DNA of 60,998 nt from Treponema brennaborense (GTDB lineage Bacteria; Spirochaetota; Spirochaetia; Treponematales; Treponemataceae): contig JAMPCJ010000012.1 of NCBI GenBank assembly GCA_023666275.1, positions 1 to 60,998 of the forward strand, written 5' to 3'. The notes beneath the pieces are model-generated. The model did no database searches. It was not told where the DNA came from and was given only the letters and a program-made list of their open reading frames with translations. Position numbers and translations under genes: made by a program. Below, piece after piece: positions 50,267 through 57,404 of this stretch. Position 1 is the stretch's first letter; the number at the start of each line of letters is the position of its first letter.

Positions 50267-51301
50267 TTACGGAAAGCGTATAGTGATTTCGCCGGAATTC
50301 AGTTCAATGCGTTTGCCTGCGGTTCCTTCAGGCAGATTCACCGGTTCGACAATCAGCCGCGCGTTGTTTGTAATGTCAACCGCGCGTGCCGAATATGATT
50401 CTGTTTGTGTCGAAACTGTGATGAGTTTTCCCAAAACAACGGAGCGTTGTTTGTATTCGTCCATAAAATGTGCGGAATCGTTTTGCAGAACAGCAAAAAG
50501 ATGTTTTAAAACCGCCGCCGCGAGAATGTTCCGCCCGATAATCAATTCGGAATTATTTTTGTCTTTTTTTATTTGACTGAAAATACTTCCGGCTTTGTCC
50601 GCAATGTCGGCAGGAAAAGACGAATTGGTTTCGGAAATATTTATTCCGATGCCGATAATAACTGTTCCCACGGATTTTGTCTGCGCGGAAATGATGCCTT
50701 CGACAAGGATTCCGCATATTTTTTTTCCGTGACAATAAATATCATTTACCCATTTTATTTTGAACGGAGATGCTGCCGGAATATTTTTTGCGCCGCCCGT
50801 GTTTTTTTCATCTTGCGCAGGATATATGTCCGGCAGGCAAATTTCATCGAGTGCGCGGCAGACAGCGACTGCTGTTCCCGCAGTAATAAATGCCGGATCC
50901 GTAAGCGTCTGCGGCAGCTGATAAAGAACGCTCATGTACAAACCGTGTTCTGCCGGGGAATAGAATGTGCGTCCGAAACGGCCTGTTCCGGCTGTCTGCG
51001 CATCGGCAATGATAACCGTTCCGTGCAGCTGTTCCGTACCGCTGCGGGAACTCTTTGCGCCTTGTGCGTCATTCTGCGCGGCAGCTATCCGCCGGCATTC
51101 CGCATTTGTGGAATCCAGTGTTTTATGTATGTGAATTTTTCCGCCGACTGCTTTCAGGCATAACGCTGCACATTGCTGTTTTAATGCGCGTTCTATATCA
51201 GCGGAAGATAATTCCTGCACAGCGCGGCTTAGTGCAGGATTTGCTGTTGATGTATGATTCGAAGATGTACCGATTTCGTCAAGACTGCTGCGGTTTGTCA
51301 T
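50267..51301 (-). CDS. birA: Biotin--[acetyl-CoA-carboxylase] ligase
   Basis: A 344-residue biotin ligase with the catalytic AGTGRFGR motif and KWVNDIYCHGKKICGILVE. It has no N-terminal helix-turn-helix, so it cannot act as a biotin repressor. The C-terminal SH3-like domain is present. Several internal low-complexity insertions (NPALSRAVQ, DAQGAKSSRSG, PAQDEKNTGGAKN) make it longer than the usual 240-320. The ATG at 51301 overlaps the P-II gene by 23 bases; the frame reaching 51502 is an unsupported extension. Confidence 0.85.
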   Translation of the reverse strand: MTNRSSLDEIGTSSNHTSTANPALSRAVQELSSADIERALKQQCAALCLKAVGGKIHIHKTLDSTNAECRRIAAAQNDAQGAKSSRSGTEQLHGTVIIADAQTAGTGRFGRTFYSPAEHGLYMSVLYQLPQTLTDPAFITAGTAVAVCRALDEICLPDIYPAQDEKNTGGAKNIPAASPFKIKWVNDIYCHGKKICGILVEGIISAQTKSVGTVIIGIGINISETNSSFPADIADKAGSIFSQIKKDKNNSELIIGRNILAAAVLKHLFAVLQNDSAHFMDEYKQRSVVLGKLITVSTQTESYSARAVDITNNARLIVEPVNLPEGTAGKRIELNSGEITIRFP

Positions 51302-51953
51302 TTTTTTGTCCGAGCGGCGTAAAATTATGCACGCCGCAGCTGTATGCGATGCCGCTTCCGGGCTGCGAAAGGCAGGAAAGATTTCTGATGGTTTGCAGTA
51401 TTTGTTCCGATTTGCCTTTTTCCACAAGAATAAGCAGCAGCTCTTTTTCGGGAACAATGGTAATGCCGAAGAAGCTTGTATCTTCCGGTTTTCCCGTTCC
51501 ATGACCTTTTATTATAGTTCCGCCGCCCGCGCCGGCTTTTCTTGCGGCTGCCATTATGTCATCGGCATAGCCGGAATTGACGATAACTGTTATCAGTTCA
51601 TGTGTTGTTTCTTCTTTCATAGGTATTTCTCCGTTTTGTTTGCCGAAAGAACAGTTTTTTCCGTTTTTCAGAACTTCATCGAGTTTTATCGAAAACGCGA
51701 TGCCGAAATGTTTTTTTTCCGGCGGAACAGCTTGTACAATAGCATTGTATAAATTATCGCAATTGTTTTCGGCGTCCGCTATGAATACAATATCTTTTTC
51801 AGAATCCCCAAGACCGAGCATTTGCAGTATGTTGTTTTTTGCTGTTCCGCGTCCCAGAAGAATCGTTGCTCCGGCTGCTCCGGCTTTTCTCGCAGCTCCG
51901 GCAATAAAATCGCCCTGATTTTTCGGAACGATAACGGTTATAAGATGATTCAC
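51279..51953 (-). CDS. Tandem P-II-like signalling protein
   Basis: A 224-residue protein made of two P-II-like domains in one chain (about 1-110 and 115-210). Each has the P-II pattern: HLITVIVPKN..IAGAARKAGAAGATILLGRGT and HELITVIVNSGYADDIMAAARKAGAGGGTIIKGHGT. The T-loop region is short and the canonical uridylylated tyrosine is not evident. It overlaps the DUF1538 gene by four bases (GTGA). The start is GTG with AAGGAG upstream. It probably senses a metabolite and controls the transporter, as P-II does for AmtB; this is inference. Confidence 0.82.
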   Translation of the reverse strand: MNHLITVIVPKNQGDFIAGAARKAGAAGATILLGRGTAKNNILQMLGLGDSEKDIVFIADAENNCDNLYNAIVQAVPPEKKHFGIAFSIKLDEVLKNGKNCSFGKQNGEIPMKEETTHELITVIVNSGYADDIMAAARKAGAGGGTIIKGHGTGKPEDTSFFGITIVPEKELLLILVEKGKSEQILQTIRNLSCLSQPGSGIAYSCGVHNFTPLGQKNDKPQQS

Positions 51954-53413
51954 CGGTAATTCTCCTTTTTCTTTTTGTACGCAAATAAAATTCCCAAAAT
52001 TTGAATGGTGATGAGCGGCGTCATGGCAACAAGTGCGATAACACCGAATGCGTCGGTTACAGGATTTCCGCCCGATACGGCAGAAGCGCCGAGTGTAAAG
52101 GATAAAATAAACGTAGACGTCATGGGACCTGACGCCACGCCGCCGGAATCAAACGCGATAGCGGTAAATAATGAGGGACAGAAAAACATCAATAAAAGTG
52201 CAAGCGCATAACCGGGTAGCATAAAATACCATAAACTGAATCCGTTCATGACACGCCACATGGAAAGTCCTATAGAAACGGCAACTCCTGCGGAAAGGGA
52301 AAAAAGCAAAAGTTTTCGTTTTATTGTTCCGCCGGAAATATGTTCCACTTGATCCGTTAAAACCCACACCGCCGGTTCTGCACAGACAACTATTGCGCCG
52401 AATAAAATGCCGATTGGAATCAGCAGCCATGAATTATCCAGAGAAGCAAGCATTGTTCCGAGCTGTTCTCCCGCGGGAATAAATCCGTATTTTACGCCTA
52501 AAAGAAAAAGCGTCAAGCCCGCAAAACTCCACAAAAGACCGACTGCCATTCTTATTACTTGCCGCGGCGGCATTTTTATCAGAAAAATTTGAAACACCGC
52601 AAAAAGTATTATAAGCGGAAGCATTGCCATAATTACTTCGTGAAAAATTTCCGGAAGCAAATCGGCGAATATCGAATTTCCCGCAGATGCGGCGGCTGTC
52701 TGCAACCCTGCATCCGCGGAAGAAGAATCCGTAAATATGCCGAACAGCAAAACTGCCAGAATCGGTCCGATAGACGCGATTCCGGTCAGTCCGAAACTGT
52801 CGTTTTCGGATTTGTTTTTTCCGCCCCGCACTGCCGCAACGCCGACGCCGAGAGCCATGATAAAAGGAACGGTCATAGGTCCTGTCGTTGCTCCGCCGGA
52901 ATCAAATGCTACCGCAAGAAATTCGGGCGGCGTTTTGTACGCGCAGATAAAAACGAGAACATAAACTGCAAGAAGAATCCATTTCAGCGGAATTTGCAAA
53001 ATGGTTCGCGTCAATCCCAGCGATACAAAAAGACCGACGCCTGCCGCAATCATAAAAATAAGCTTGCTTGGATTGATTGACGGATTTACGCCGGCTATTT
53101 GCTGCGCGAGTACTTGGACATCCGGTTCTGCGATAGTGATTAGAACGCCGATAAAAAACGCGGCTGTCAGCAGCAGCGGAAGATTTTTTTTCGCCGTGAG
53201 CGCGGCGCCGGCTTTTTCTCCGACCGGAAGAATTCCCGCATCAGCTCCAAGCAGAAATAAAGAGAGTCCGATGATAACTAAAATTCCGCCGATAACAAAA
53301 CGTCCTGTCATGGCAGCACCGAGCGGCGCAGCCGTGAAATCGAGAATCAAAACGACAGCCATAACAGGCAGCACGGAAACAGAATTTTCTTTTAGTTTTG
53401 AAAGTAGGTTCAT
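51950..53413 (-). CDS. DUF1538 family membrane protein
   Basis: A 487-residue protein with about 12 membrane spans and an internal repeat. The two halves share a pattern: GLSLFLLGADAGILPVGEKAG / GLTLFLLGVKYGFIPAGEQLG, IAEPDVQVLAQQI / CAEPAVWVLTDQV, and AFDSGGATTGPMTVPFI / AFDSGGVASGPMTSTFI. Such DUF1538 proteins commonly sit next to P-II genes, suggesting a regulated transporter. Substrate unknown. The ATG at 53413 has GGAAG upstream. Confidence 0.83.
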   Translation of the reverse strand: MNLLSKLKENSVSVLPVMAVVLILDFTAAPLGAAMTGRFVIGGILVIIGLSLFLLGADAGILPVGEKAGAALTAKKNLPLLLTAAFFIGVLITIAEPDVQVLAQQIAGVNPSINPSKLIFMIAAGVGLFVSLGLTRTILQIPLKWILLAVYVLVFICAYKTPPEFLAVAFDSGGATTGPMTVPFIMALGVGVAAVRGGKNKSENDSFGLTGIASIGPILAVLLFGIFTDSSSADAGLQTAAASAGNSIFADLLPEIFHEVIMAMLPLIILFAVFQIFLIKMPPRQVIRMAVGLLWSFAGLTLFLLGVKYGFIPAGEQLGTMLASLDNSWLLIPIGILFGAIVVCAEPAVWVLTDQVEHISGGTIKRKLLLFSLSAGVAVSIGLSMWRVMNGFSLWYFMLPGYALALLLMFFCPSLFTAIAFDSGGVASGPMTSTFILSFTLGASAVSGGNPVTDAFGVIALVAMTPLITIQILGILFAYKKKKENYR

Positions 53414-53560: not shown

Positions 53561-54268
53561 TTAAATAACGGATAATTCTTGTATTATGCTGCGGACAAAA
53601 TCCGCGCATAATTCCGCCGCCGTAGTTTCGTTGAAATCGTATTCCGCTTTTTCAAAAATGTCCGCCGTATCCGACATACATCGAATAATAACGAACGGCA
53701 CCTTGTGTACATAACAGGTTTGGGCAATGGCGCAGCCTTCCATTTCTACGCAGGTAGGAGCGCAGGCGTTTTTAATTGCCTGTTTTTTTTCCGCCGAATG
53801 AATAAAGCAGTCTCCCGAAGCAATTCTGCCCGTATGCAGCTGAAAGTTTTTGTTCTGTTTTTTGAACGCTGTCTGCGCGGCTTGTACAAGCGCTGCATCA
53901 GCCGGAAAAACCCGCGGCATTCCGGGCAGCGTGCAAGATTCATATCCGAAAAAAACAGCGTCGGCATCATGATAAATCGTATCCGAGGAAACGACGAAAT
54001 CAAAAACATGAAGCTTTTCGTCAATTGCGCCGGCAATACCGGTATTGATAATGGTATCGGCACCGAATTTGAGAATCATTATTTGCGTACATAATGCGGC
54101 ATTTACTTTTCCCACTCCGCTTTTTGCGATAATGACATTTATTCCGCCGAGAGTTCCTTCATAAAAAGCAATGCCGGCAATTTCCGATACGGCGGCGCTG
54201 TCCTGAATATATTGTTTAAGCAATGCGATTTCCGCGTCCATTGCTCCGATAATTCCCAGTTTTTTCAT
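53561..54268 (-). CDS. mtnN: 5'-methylthioadenosine/S-adenosylhomocysteine nucleosidase
   Basis: A 235-residue MTA/SAH nucleosidase that removes adenine from methylthioadenosine and S-adenosylhomocysteine and so serves methionine salvage and the activated methyl cycle. The N-terminus is KLGIIGAMDAEI; the substrate-binding CVEMEGCAIAQTC and catalytic RCMSDTAD (with the conserved Asp) are present. The start at 54268 lies ten bases from a perfect AGGAGG. An ATG three codons upstream is only one base from it and is rejected. Confidence 0.95.
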   Translation of the reverse strand: MKKLGIIGAMDAEIALLKQYIQDSAAVSEIAGIAFYEGTLGGINVIIAKSGVGKVNAALCTQIMILKFGADTIINTGIAGAIDEKLHVFDFVVSSDTIYHDADAVFFGYESCTLPGMPRVFPADAALVQAAQTAFKKQNKNFQLHTGRIASGDCFIHSAEKKQAIKNACAPTCVEMEGCAIAQTCYVHKVPFVIIRCMSDTADIFEKAEYDFNETTAAELCADFVRSIIQELSVI

Positions 54269-54516
54269 GCTGTGCATTCCTCCTGCAAATTTCGATTTTA
54301 AATATATACCGCAATTTGCGGGCAGTAAAGAGGTTTGTTTGATATTGATGAACGCGGCCGGCGGCTGCCGAAAAAACGCCGCGGAAAATGTGCATACGGG
54401 ATTTCCCGCGCAAGTGTTTTATATGAACTTGTCATGCGTTAAAACTTCCGCTACAATTTTTCGAAAGTTTTATTTTATTGTGCAGGAGCGCCTGAACCCC
54501 AAGACGGAAAACTATC

Positions 54517-55959
54517 ATGAAAACAATAATTGTCGGAGCGGGCTTTACCGGTGTACAACTTGCCCGCCGCCTTATTGCGGATAAAAATGATGTTGTACTC
54601 ATAGACAGCGATGAAGAAACCGTGCGCCATGTGTCGAATCGCCTTGACTGCATGGTAATGCAGGCTAACGGAAACAGCCTCCGTGTTCTTGAAGACGCCG
54701 GCATAGAAAAAGCGGATTCCCTTGTTGCGGTAACGAATTCCGATGAAGTGAATATGATAACTTGTTCGCTTGTCGATTCCGTGTATCCGAAAGTAAAGAA
54801 AATCGCAAGAGTGCGCAATTATGATTATTACGCAAATTCTGCCGACTCCGCGGAAAAAGAAAAATCCGATGCATCGGCAAAAAACAGTCATCACTTATAC
54901 GGCATAGACAACATGGTGCATCCCGATGTCGAAGCTGCGGAAGCGATTGTAAATGCCGTAGAGCACGGCGCCGTCACGGAAGTAGTCGATTTTGAAAATT
55001 CCGAATACGAACTGACAAGAATTACCGTGGAAAAAGGAAGCCGCCTTGACGGAGTATGCGTTCAGGATATCCGCCGGATGACAGACGACGTTTTTTTGCT
55101 TGCTTTTGTCGAAAAAGGAAATGAAACATACATGCCCGACGGTTCCGCTGTGCTGCATGCCGAAGACCGCATCGGCATTCTTACCACAAAGGAAGCCCTG
55201 CCGCGTTTTTTGGAGTTATGCGGTTCCGAAATTCACGAACTGAAAAAAATAATCCTTGTCGGCGCCGGCAGAATCGGTACGCTCATTGCCGACCAAATTG
55301 TCCGCAAAAACAAGCTTTCTTTTTTGTCGCGTTTTCTCGGTTTTTATAAAAAAGCAAATCAGGAATTCGTTATCATTGACAATGACAGCGCCCGCGCGAA
55401 AGCCGCTTCCGAACGATATCCGGAAGCAGCTGTTTTCTGCGCCGACATTACCGACGAAAGTTTTATTGCGGAAGAAGGACTTGATAAATTCGATTTGCTG
55501 ATTACCGCGACGCATAATTACGAATTGAATATGGTTACCGCCGCGTATTTCAAATCACTGGGAATGGAACGAACCGTATGCCTTGTTGCAAGCAGCAGCT
55601 TCGCGGGAATTTCGCGCAATATCGGAATCGATGTTGCGGTTCCGATAAAAGACGCCGTCGTGGATACGATAATCAGTCATCTGCGCGGGAAAAATGTTTC
55701 CGATATACACACTGTTTCCGACGCAGGTCTGGAAATTGCCGAAATAGAATTGCCGGAAACAACAAAAGTTGCCGGAAAAACGCTGAAAGACATTGCCGTT
55801 GCGGGATCGTTTCTTGTTTTGCTGATATGCAAAGCAGAAACAAATACCTATGTGCTTGCCGACGGCAATACCTCTCTCAGTCCGTTTGATAAACTTGTCG
55901 TAATTGACCGCATCGCCGAAAACAGAAAACTGCTCGATATTCTCGGAGTCCTTGAGTGA
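54517..55959 (+). CDS. trkA: Trk potassium uptake regulatory subunit TrkA
   Basis: A 480-residue cytoplasmic protein with two tandem RCK units, each an NAD-binding Rossmann domain (KTIIVGAGFTGVQLARRL and KIILVGAGRIGTLIADQI) plus a TrkA-C domain. It gates the TrkH channel by nucleotide binding. The gene overlaps trkH by four bases. The upstream region (54269-54516) holds no riboswitch that I can recognise. The start ATG has a weak ribosome site. Confidence 0.95.
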   Translation: MKTIIVGAGFTGVQLARRLIADKNDVVLIDSDEETVRHVSNRLDCMVMQANGNSLRVLEDAGIEKADSLVAVTNSDEVNMITCSLVDSVYPKVKKIARVRNYDYYANSADSAEKEKSDASAKNSHHLYGIDNMVHPDVEAAEAIVNAVEHGAVTEVVDFENSEYELTRITVEKGSRLDGVCVQDIRRMTDDVFLLAFVEKGNETYMPDGSAVLHAEDRIGILTTKEALPRFLELCGSEIHELKKIILVGAGRIGTLIADQIVRKNKLSFLSRFLGFYKKANQEFVIIDNDSARAKAASERYPEAAVFCADITDESFIAEEGLDKFDLLITATHNYELNMVTAAYFKSLGMERTVCLVASSSFAGISRNIGIDVAVPIKDAVVDTIISHLRGKNVSDIHTVSDAGLEIAEIELPETTKVAGKTLKDIAVAGSFLVLLICKAETNTYVLADGNTSLSPFDKLVVIDRIAENRKLLDILGVLE

Positions 55960-57404
55960 AAATTCTGCCGTTTATTCGTTTGCATATCATGCTGCTTGCA
56001 ATTATTTCGGTTTCAATGATAATTCCGCTTGTGTGCGCAATTGCATGCAATGAATCCGCCGCGGCAAAAGCGTTTGCGCTTCCGTTTTGCGTTTGTTTTA
56101 TTGCCGGAATAATTTTTTTAATCGCGGGACGAAAACAAAAAATAACGCTTTCCGCGCGTTCCGGTTTTGCCGTTGTTGCGCTTTGCTGGATAACGGCAAG
56201 TTTTTTAGGCGCAGTTCCGTTCGTTTTATCCGGCACAATTCCGTCTGCAACGGATGCTTTTTTCGAAAGCGTTTCCGGATTTACGACAACCGGCGCAACG
56301 GTTCTTTCGGATGTGGAAAATCTGCCGCGTTCAATCAATGTTTGGCGCACCGAGATGCATTGGCTCGGCGGCATGGGAATAGTGGCACTGACCGTTGCGT
56401 TGTTTCCCGTGCTCGGCGTGGGCGGATTTCAGCTTATCAAGGCGGAAACAACCGGGCCGGAAAAAGGCAAAATTACGTCGAAAATTACCGACACGGCAAA
56501 AATTTTATGGTTTATTTATTTGGGATTTACCGCTGTGCAGACCGTTTTTTTAATGATTGCCGGCATGGATTTTATCGATGCACTGAGTTATTCGTTTTCT
56601 ACTTTGGGAACCGGCGGCTTTGCCACAAAAAATGCGAGCATAGGTGCGTACAATTCCGCCGCCGTTGACTGGATCTGCACGGTGTTCATGCTGCTTGCCG
56701 GTGTCAACTTCAGTTTGTATTACCGGCTTATTTTGGGAAAAGGCAAAGAACTTCTGCATAATACGGAATTAAAAGCGTATATAGGCATCGTTGTAACCGC
56801 GGTCTGTATTGCAGCCGCCGCTGTTCTGCCGCAGTATAAAACGCTCGCGCAGTCTTTGCGCTATGCATCGTTTCAGGTTGCATCGTTTATAACGACAACC
56901 GGCTTTTCGACAGCCGATTATGCGCAATGGGCGCCTGCCGCGCAAATGGCGCTGTTTTTGCTGATGTTTGTGGGCGGCTGTTCCGGTTCGACAAGCGGCA
57001 ATATAAAAGTTGTGCGCTGGGTTGTGCTTGCAAAGCAGATGACAAACGAAACCAACAGAATGCTGCATCCGCACGGAGTATTCAGCATTCGCCTGAACGG
57101 ACGCGCCGGACGGAAAGATATAGTATACAGTGTGTCCGCTTTTATTTTTTTGTATTTAATGCTGGTTCTTGTTACGGGAATTGTTGCGGCATTTGACGGC
57201 GCGGATTTGTTGACGTCATTTTCCACGGCGCTTACGCTTGTCGGAAATATCGGCGTCGGCTTCGGAAAAACAGGTTCGGGCGGAAACTTTCAGGTTTTTT
57301 CGGCAGCCGTAAAATGGTGGTTTTGTTTTGCCATGATTGCTGGAAGATTGGAACTGTACACAATGTTTGTTTTCTTTTTTCCGTCGTTCTGGAAAAAACG
57401 ATAA
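55956..57404 (+). CDS. trkH: Potassium uptake protein TrkH
   Basis: A 482-residue K+ channel-like protein with four M1-P-M2 repeats. Pore loops with the family's selectivity residues are visible: SGFTTTGATV, TLGTGGFATKN, TTTGFSTADY, and GNIGVGFGKTG. Between repeats lies GCSGSTSGNIK, found in TrkH. Start is GTG, overlapping the trkA stop (GTGA), with GGAG upstream. TrkA-TrkH together import potassium, driven by the membrane potential. Confidence 0.95.
   Translation: MKILPFIRLHIMLLAIISVSMIIPLVCAIACNESAAAKAFALPFCVCFIAGIIFLIAGRKQKITLSARSGFAVVALCWITASFLGAVPFVLSGTIPSATDAFFESVSGFTTTGATVLSDVENLPRSINVWRTEMHWLGGMGIVALTVALFPVLGVGGFQLIKAETTGPEKGKITSKITDTAKILWFIYLGFTAVQTVFLMIAGMDFIDALSYSFSTLGTGGFATKNASIGAYNSAAVDWICTVFMLLAGVNFSLYYRLILGKGKELLHNTELKAYIGIVVTAVCIAAAAVLPQYKTLAQSLRYASFQVASFITTTGFSTADYAQWAPAAQMALFLLMFVGGCSGSTSGNIKVVRWVVLAKQMTNETNRMLHPHGVFSIRLNGRAGRKDIVYSVSAFIFLYLMLVLVTGIVAAFDGADLLTSFSTALTLVGNIGVGFGKTGSGGNFQVFSAAVKWWFCFAMIAGRLELYTMFVFFFPSFWKKR

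Follow-up and report, generated by a model that had tools for sequence, protein, structure and literature searches.

The minus strand of the window, by which we mean the whole 60,998-nt stretch of DNA that was analysed, carries at 51279–53413 a gene for a DUF1538 membrane protein and, overlapping it, a gene for a P-II-like partner (Table 1), in agreement with the coordinates and motifs given by the initial annotation. The DUF1538 reading frame starts with ATG at 53413, and the GTG start codon of the P-II gene overlaps its stop codon by 4 nt (GTGA, 51950–51953). This arrangement is conserved in relatives and therefore lies far beyond chance, and the tight coupling noted by the initial annotation is borne out. 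The P-II-like chain would be made by translational coupling.

Table 1. Features of the DUF1538/P-II locus (positions in the window).
Feature	Position	Strand	Basis
Two-domain P-II-like chain, 224 aa, GTG start	51279..51953	-	PF00543; model and fold search
P-II domain 2, residues 116-218, AGAxGGT...RGTG...PEKE signature	51300..51608	-	Fold match, Z about 10; conserved columns
P-II domain 1, residues 2-102, more divergent	51648..51950	-	Fold match, Z about 10
Fused DUF1538 (UmpAB-like) membrane protein, 487 aa	51950..53413	-	Two PF07556 domains over cut-off; model
AGGAG ribosome-binding site of the P-II gene, within the DUF1538 3' end	51962..51966	-	Sequence, 8 nt upstream of GTG
Second DUF1538 half, predicted N-out/C-in, 7 TM	51986..52612	-	PF07556, 241.9 bits; KR bias
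AFDSGGVASGPM motif, second half	52121..52156	-	A420, F421, D422 and G424 invariant
AEP motif, second half	52373..52381	-	E346 and P347 invariant
First DUF1538 half, predicted N-in/C-out, 7 TM	52733..53365	-	PF07556, 229 bits; KR bias
AFDSGGATTGPM, TM6 break, first half; candidate ion site	52874..52909	-	F170, D171 and G174 invariant; helix break in model
AEPD motif, TM3 break, first half; candidate ion site	53120..53131	-	E96 and P97 invariant; helix break in model

The internal duplication of the membrane protein that had been proposed is borne out by two PF07556 domains, each scoring about ten times the curated cut-off of 22.6 bits in a Pfam profile search, and by the presence of AFDSGG..GPM in both halves (AFDSGGATTGPM in the first, AFDSGGVASGPM in the second). 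In the structural model (pLDDT 93.7, pTM 0.92), each half consists of seven membrane segments, two of which are broken, at AEP and at FDSGG; in the first half these breaks divide TM3 into residues 78–94 and 97–109 and TM6 into residues 163–175 and 181–195. The invariant acidic motifs are common to the whole fused DUF1538 class. A PDB sequence search with the protein and its profile returned no relative, and Foldseek returned no PDB match to the model at E ≤ 0.001. As the best VIA fold match, NCX_Mj, is also weak (Z 5.3, 6.0 Å over 164 residues), we claim no fold kinship for DUF1538, either with SbtA (BASS-like fold) or with other proteins.

The partner chain scores 43.5 bits against PF00543 (cut-off 25), and its model (mean pLDDT 90.5, pTM 0.86) folds into two P-II domains of the ferredoxin-like type that share 33% identity, as the initial annotation had read from the sequence. 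Residues 118–218 match solved P-II chains at Z about 10 (e.g., 5l9n, 1.7 Å over 88 residues), and residues 2–105 match solved P-II proteins at a similar Z of about 10. The AGAxGGT...RGTG...PEKE signature is kept in domain 2 and in lone P-II proteins and takes a weaker form in domain 1. The T-loop, Q39, K58, the TGxxGDGK B-loop, and the C-terminal R101 and R103 are the elements with established roles in canonical P-II proteins. Q39, K58, the B-loop, and the two arginines are absent from both domains of the present chain, and its T-loop is short; domain 2 reads GTGKPED..PEKE..LSQPGSGI and lacks the C-terminal arginines.

To place the locus among its relatives, loci were collected by DUF1538 alone and the downstream gene was then inspected. 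The survey drew on the window's relatives, Spirochaetota, Clostridia, Desulfobacterota, Planctomycetota, and plasmids, and comprises about 200 readable loci; contig-end, broken, and single odd cases were left out of the counts, as was one duplicate record (L132 repeats L125), and P-II domain numbers were taken from ORF length and profile matches. A P-II gene follows DUF1538 in all but two of these loci, the exceptions being two fused copies, L118 and the second copy of the tandem pair in L063. Among the plasmids, searches from DUF1538 and from the P-II protein found an identical set of nine records.

Fused DUF1538 proteins occur with two P-II domains at 132 loci, in one chain at 121 and as two single-domain genes at 11, and long fused proteins occur with a three-domain P-II chain at 21. 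Unfused DUF1538 pairs divide into 15 loci with one P-II and 15 with two P-II domains (11 as a two-domain chain, 4 as two genes), and lone DUF1538 genes have one P-II (14 loci). The association of DUF1538 with P-II is therefore nearly universal, yet P-II domains and membrane halves do not vary in step. A strict rule that duplicated DUF1538 always goes with duplicated P-II, which the initial annotation had put forward for a survey, is contradicted by the 15 unfused pairs with one P-II. What survives is a weaker remnant of its symmetry idea: doubled P-II is confined to loci in which the membrane part is either fused or a pair of non-identical genes, and occurs with none of the 14 lone genes, although these belong to few clades.

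In the long fusions (L114–L117, L157, L158, L261–L277), the membrane gene is followed by a chain of roughly 370 aa with three P-II-like domains, which could be a covalent pseudo-trimer; a Pfam scan of one such chain, that of L271, gave no match at E 0.01. In one genome (G017), an unfused DUF1538 set accompanied by one P-II coexists with a fused set that has two (L112:6776-8545 and L113:8220-10323), and the reading frames for DUF1538 are broken in each set, through decay or sequencing error.

The counts of K and R residues alternate along successive DUF1538 loops, and the pattern is opposite between the two halves. When counted in the columns present in the window's first half, a restriction made because inserted columns blur the long second halves (+1.2), the KR bias across the survey is +7.4 for fused first halves (positive in 146 of 146) and −6.5 for fused second halves (negative in 145 of 146). 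Unfused pairs give +5.2 for first genes and −5.8 for second genes (28 of 28 each), and long fusions +6.4 and −3.9 for first and second halves, respectively. Lone genes are close to neutral at +0.8, with 8 positive and 6 negative; in six genomes of one order, the lone DUF1538 gene is the only DUF1538 match genome-wide. These values resemble those tabulated for Escherichia coli, in which dual-topology proteins have a KR bias of −2 to +1 and antiparallel pairs of about ±6 to 7 (PMC3962082). Together with the odd number of membrane segments per half, seven by both the model helices and the alternating loop charge, the charge bias suggests that the two halves probably lie inverted to each other in the membrane.

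The tree of DUF1538 halves groups the first halves of the fused class with the first genes of the main pairs and the second halves with the second genes (support 99 each). The hypothesis that all DUF1538 pairs share one duplication was rejected (AU p 0.0003), and the UmpAB-like pairs derive from a separate duplication (AU p 0.0002). The pairs closest to UmpAB (L153–L155) and the long fusions stem from duplications other than that of the main class; L154 scores 355 and 316 bits against the UmpA and UmpB models. For P-II, one duplication and several fit alike (AU p 0.77; 103 columns, short tree).

A substrate class is suggested by UmpAB of Halomonas zhaodongensis, a DUF1538 heterodimer that catalyzes Na+(Li+,K+)/H+ antiport and whose subunits have seven predicted TM segments each (PMC5484666). 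The window protein is like UmpAB in its Pfam family, in its two homologous units, and in the seven predicted TM segments of each; it differs in being fused in one chain, in its distance, in its separate duplication, and in its coupling to a two-domain P-II chain. The UmpA and UmpB models (NF041627, NF041628) match both halves below threshold, at about 95–110 bits versus cut-offs of 490 and 500, so that the substrate assignment is transferred from remote homologs. DUF1538 also ranks within the top 20 Pfam features for the prediction of growth pH (PMC13255231). The initial annotation had held that neither ligand nor substrate is known; this still applies to the P-II ligand but no longer to the substrate class of the family, given the antiport activity of UmpAB with Na+, Li+, or K+ (PMC5484666).

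We favor, with a probability of roughly 0.6, the reading that the unit pairs a cation/H+ antiporter of the DUF1538 (UmpAB) family, built as a fused inverted repeat, with a P-II-like regulatory subunit dedicated to it. In this reading, the membrane chain would consist of two homologous seven-TM units inserted in opposite orientation, a task that relatives would perform with two genes, or with one gene whose product probably forms an antiparallel homodimer. Ion exchange would proceed via the invariant acids of AEP and FDSGG, at the two broken helices of each half. The P-II-like chain would bind at the cytosolic side of the membrane chain and restrain transport in response to a small ligand, much as GlnK acts on AmtB and SbtB on SbtA.

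DUF1538 proteins of this branch might instead transport a different ion or some small solute, antiport being confined to the UmpAB branch. The separate duplication of the UmpAB-like pairs, the low scores to the Ump models, and the lack of a convincing PDB fold match are compatible with such a divergence; we nevertheless consider it somewhat unlikely, as the same invariant acidic motifs run through the fused class and K+ transport genes lie nearby.

With regard to the partner, the P-II-like chain is probably a dedicated regulator of the DUF1538 protein, as judged by analogy. UmpAB is active in E. coli from constructs with only umpA and umpB (PMC5484666), which indicates that P-II is not needed there and that any P-II partner would have a modulating role. 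Since the canonical residues for ATP/2-oxoglutarate are missing, sensing of these ligands in the usual P-II manner is improbable, and nitrogen sensing is served elsewhere, as the same genome encodes a canonical P-II fused to an ammonium transporter (L289:1462-3279, minus strand, contig C14). c-di-AMP was considered as a ligand; the cyclase domain is present in 55 of 59 relatives, whether or not they carry DUF1538, and thus does not discriminate.

The absence of the canonical ATP/2-oxoglutarate residues from both domains, the short T-loop, and the divergence of domain 1 would also be expected if, within the same antiporter, the P-II-like chain were a structural or assembly subunit, or an activator, and not a ligand-sensing throttle. 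This alternative is unlikely in our view. The activity of UmpAB from umpA and umpB alone argues against it, AGAxGGT and PEKE are strongly kept in domain 2 and in lone P-II proteins, which suggests a preserved site, and SbtB senses adenine nucleotides while on its transporter (PMC8352866).

The initial annotation had proposed a matching pseudo-symmetric complex of the two membrane halves with the two P-II domains, which would put one domain on each half; this is very improbable, for although the window's locus and the 132 fused loci are two-and-two and doubled P-II is not seen with lone DUF1538 genes, two halves also occur with one P-II domain (15 unfused pairs) or three (21 long fusions), a lone gene has one, DUF1538 was duplicated more than once with some pairs having a lone P-II, and the loop charges put the halves in opposite orientation. 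Such an orientation would place the pseudo-twofold axis in the membrane plane and the cytosolic loops at non-homologous positions, leaving no equivalent cytosolic surfaces for the P-II chain, which speaks against a symmetric fit of one P-II domain per half.

The proposed antiporter with a docked P-II-like regulator is reminiscent of two characterized systems. In AmtB-GlnK, a membrane transporter has a P-II encoded beside it, as in the DUF1538 unit, but the P-II is canonical, with a full T-loop and ATP/2-oxoglutarate residues, and the substrate is ammonium. SbtA-SbtB likewise combines an inverted-repeat secondary transporter with an adjacent P-II-like gene, and both SbtB and GlnK use the T-loop to bind the cytosolic side of the respective transporter (PMC8352866). 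Unlike the DUF1538/P-II unit, SbtA is a trimeric 5+5 TM protein and SbtB a single-domain protein with a structured T-loop, and no sequence similarity between SbtA and the DUF1538 protein was found. Given the short T-loop, the contact between the P-II-like chain and its transporter must differ in detail from those of SbtB and GlnK.

The lone, paired, and fused forms of DUF1538 look like a classic dual-topology series with seven TM segments per unit. The DUF606, Fluc, and SMR families are alike in that their members occur singly, in pairs, or fused, with a charge bias that is neutral or opposite (PMC3962082); their units are smaller, with 3 to about 5 TM segments versus seven. As all three forms of DUF1538 are found in nature, the steps from homodimer to inverted repeat become directly comparable. 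We know of no P-II partner in the DUF606, Fluc, or SMR families.

A broader proposal, on which we see the odds as even, is that DUF1538 is a dual-topology antiporter family with seven TM segments per unit, larger than the described dual-topology proteins, whose members are lone homodimers, antiparallel pairs, and fused inverted repeats stemming from several independent duplications. Under this proposal, nearly every form is accompanied by a P-II-like regulator of its own, whose domains increase to two or three only once the membrane part is asymmetric. Literature searches found neither a link between DUF1538 and P-II, nor any mention of inverted DUF1538 topology or of a P-II partner of UmpAB; the dual-topology series and the near-universal P-II partner thus appear undescribed in the searchable literature. 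The unit is a widespread transporter-regulator pair and locally ordinary, and the survey makes an obscure family testable with respect to two questions: whether a P-II-like protein gates cation/H+ exchange, and whether a seven-TM protein inserts both ways.

Ion-channel families are the most frequent among the 133 flanking proteins. Near the unit in the window lies a divergent TrkA-TrkH potassium uptake operon (54517–57404, plus strand, 4-nt overlap); as a conserved partner it was discarded, TrkH being found at only one other surveyed locus (L221). A gene for a cyclic-nucleotide-gated channel stands beside six of the long units with three-domain P-II chains (L114, L271, L274, L275, L276, and L277). 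These K+ transport and channel neighbors fit a cation role of DUF1538 and prove nothing.

Upstream of DUF1538, a gene for MTA/SAH nucleosidase (pfs) is found in the window (53561–54277, minus strand) and at 18 other loci, often followed by luxS; the window seems to have no luxS next to pfs and DUF1538. Downstream of the unit, birA is present at 12 loci, and many Treponema loci have the order pfs, luxS, DUF1538, P-II, birA (e.g., L032:8706-9945).
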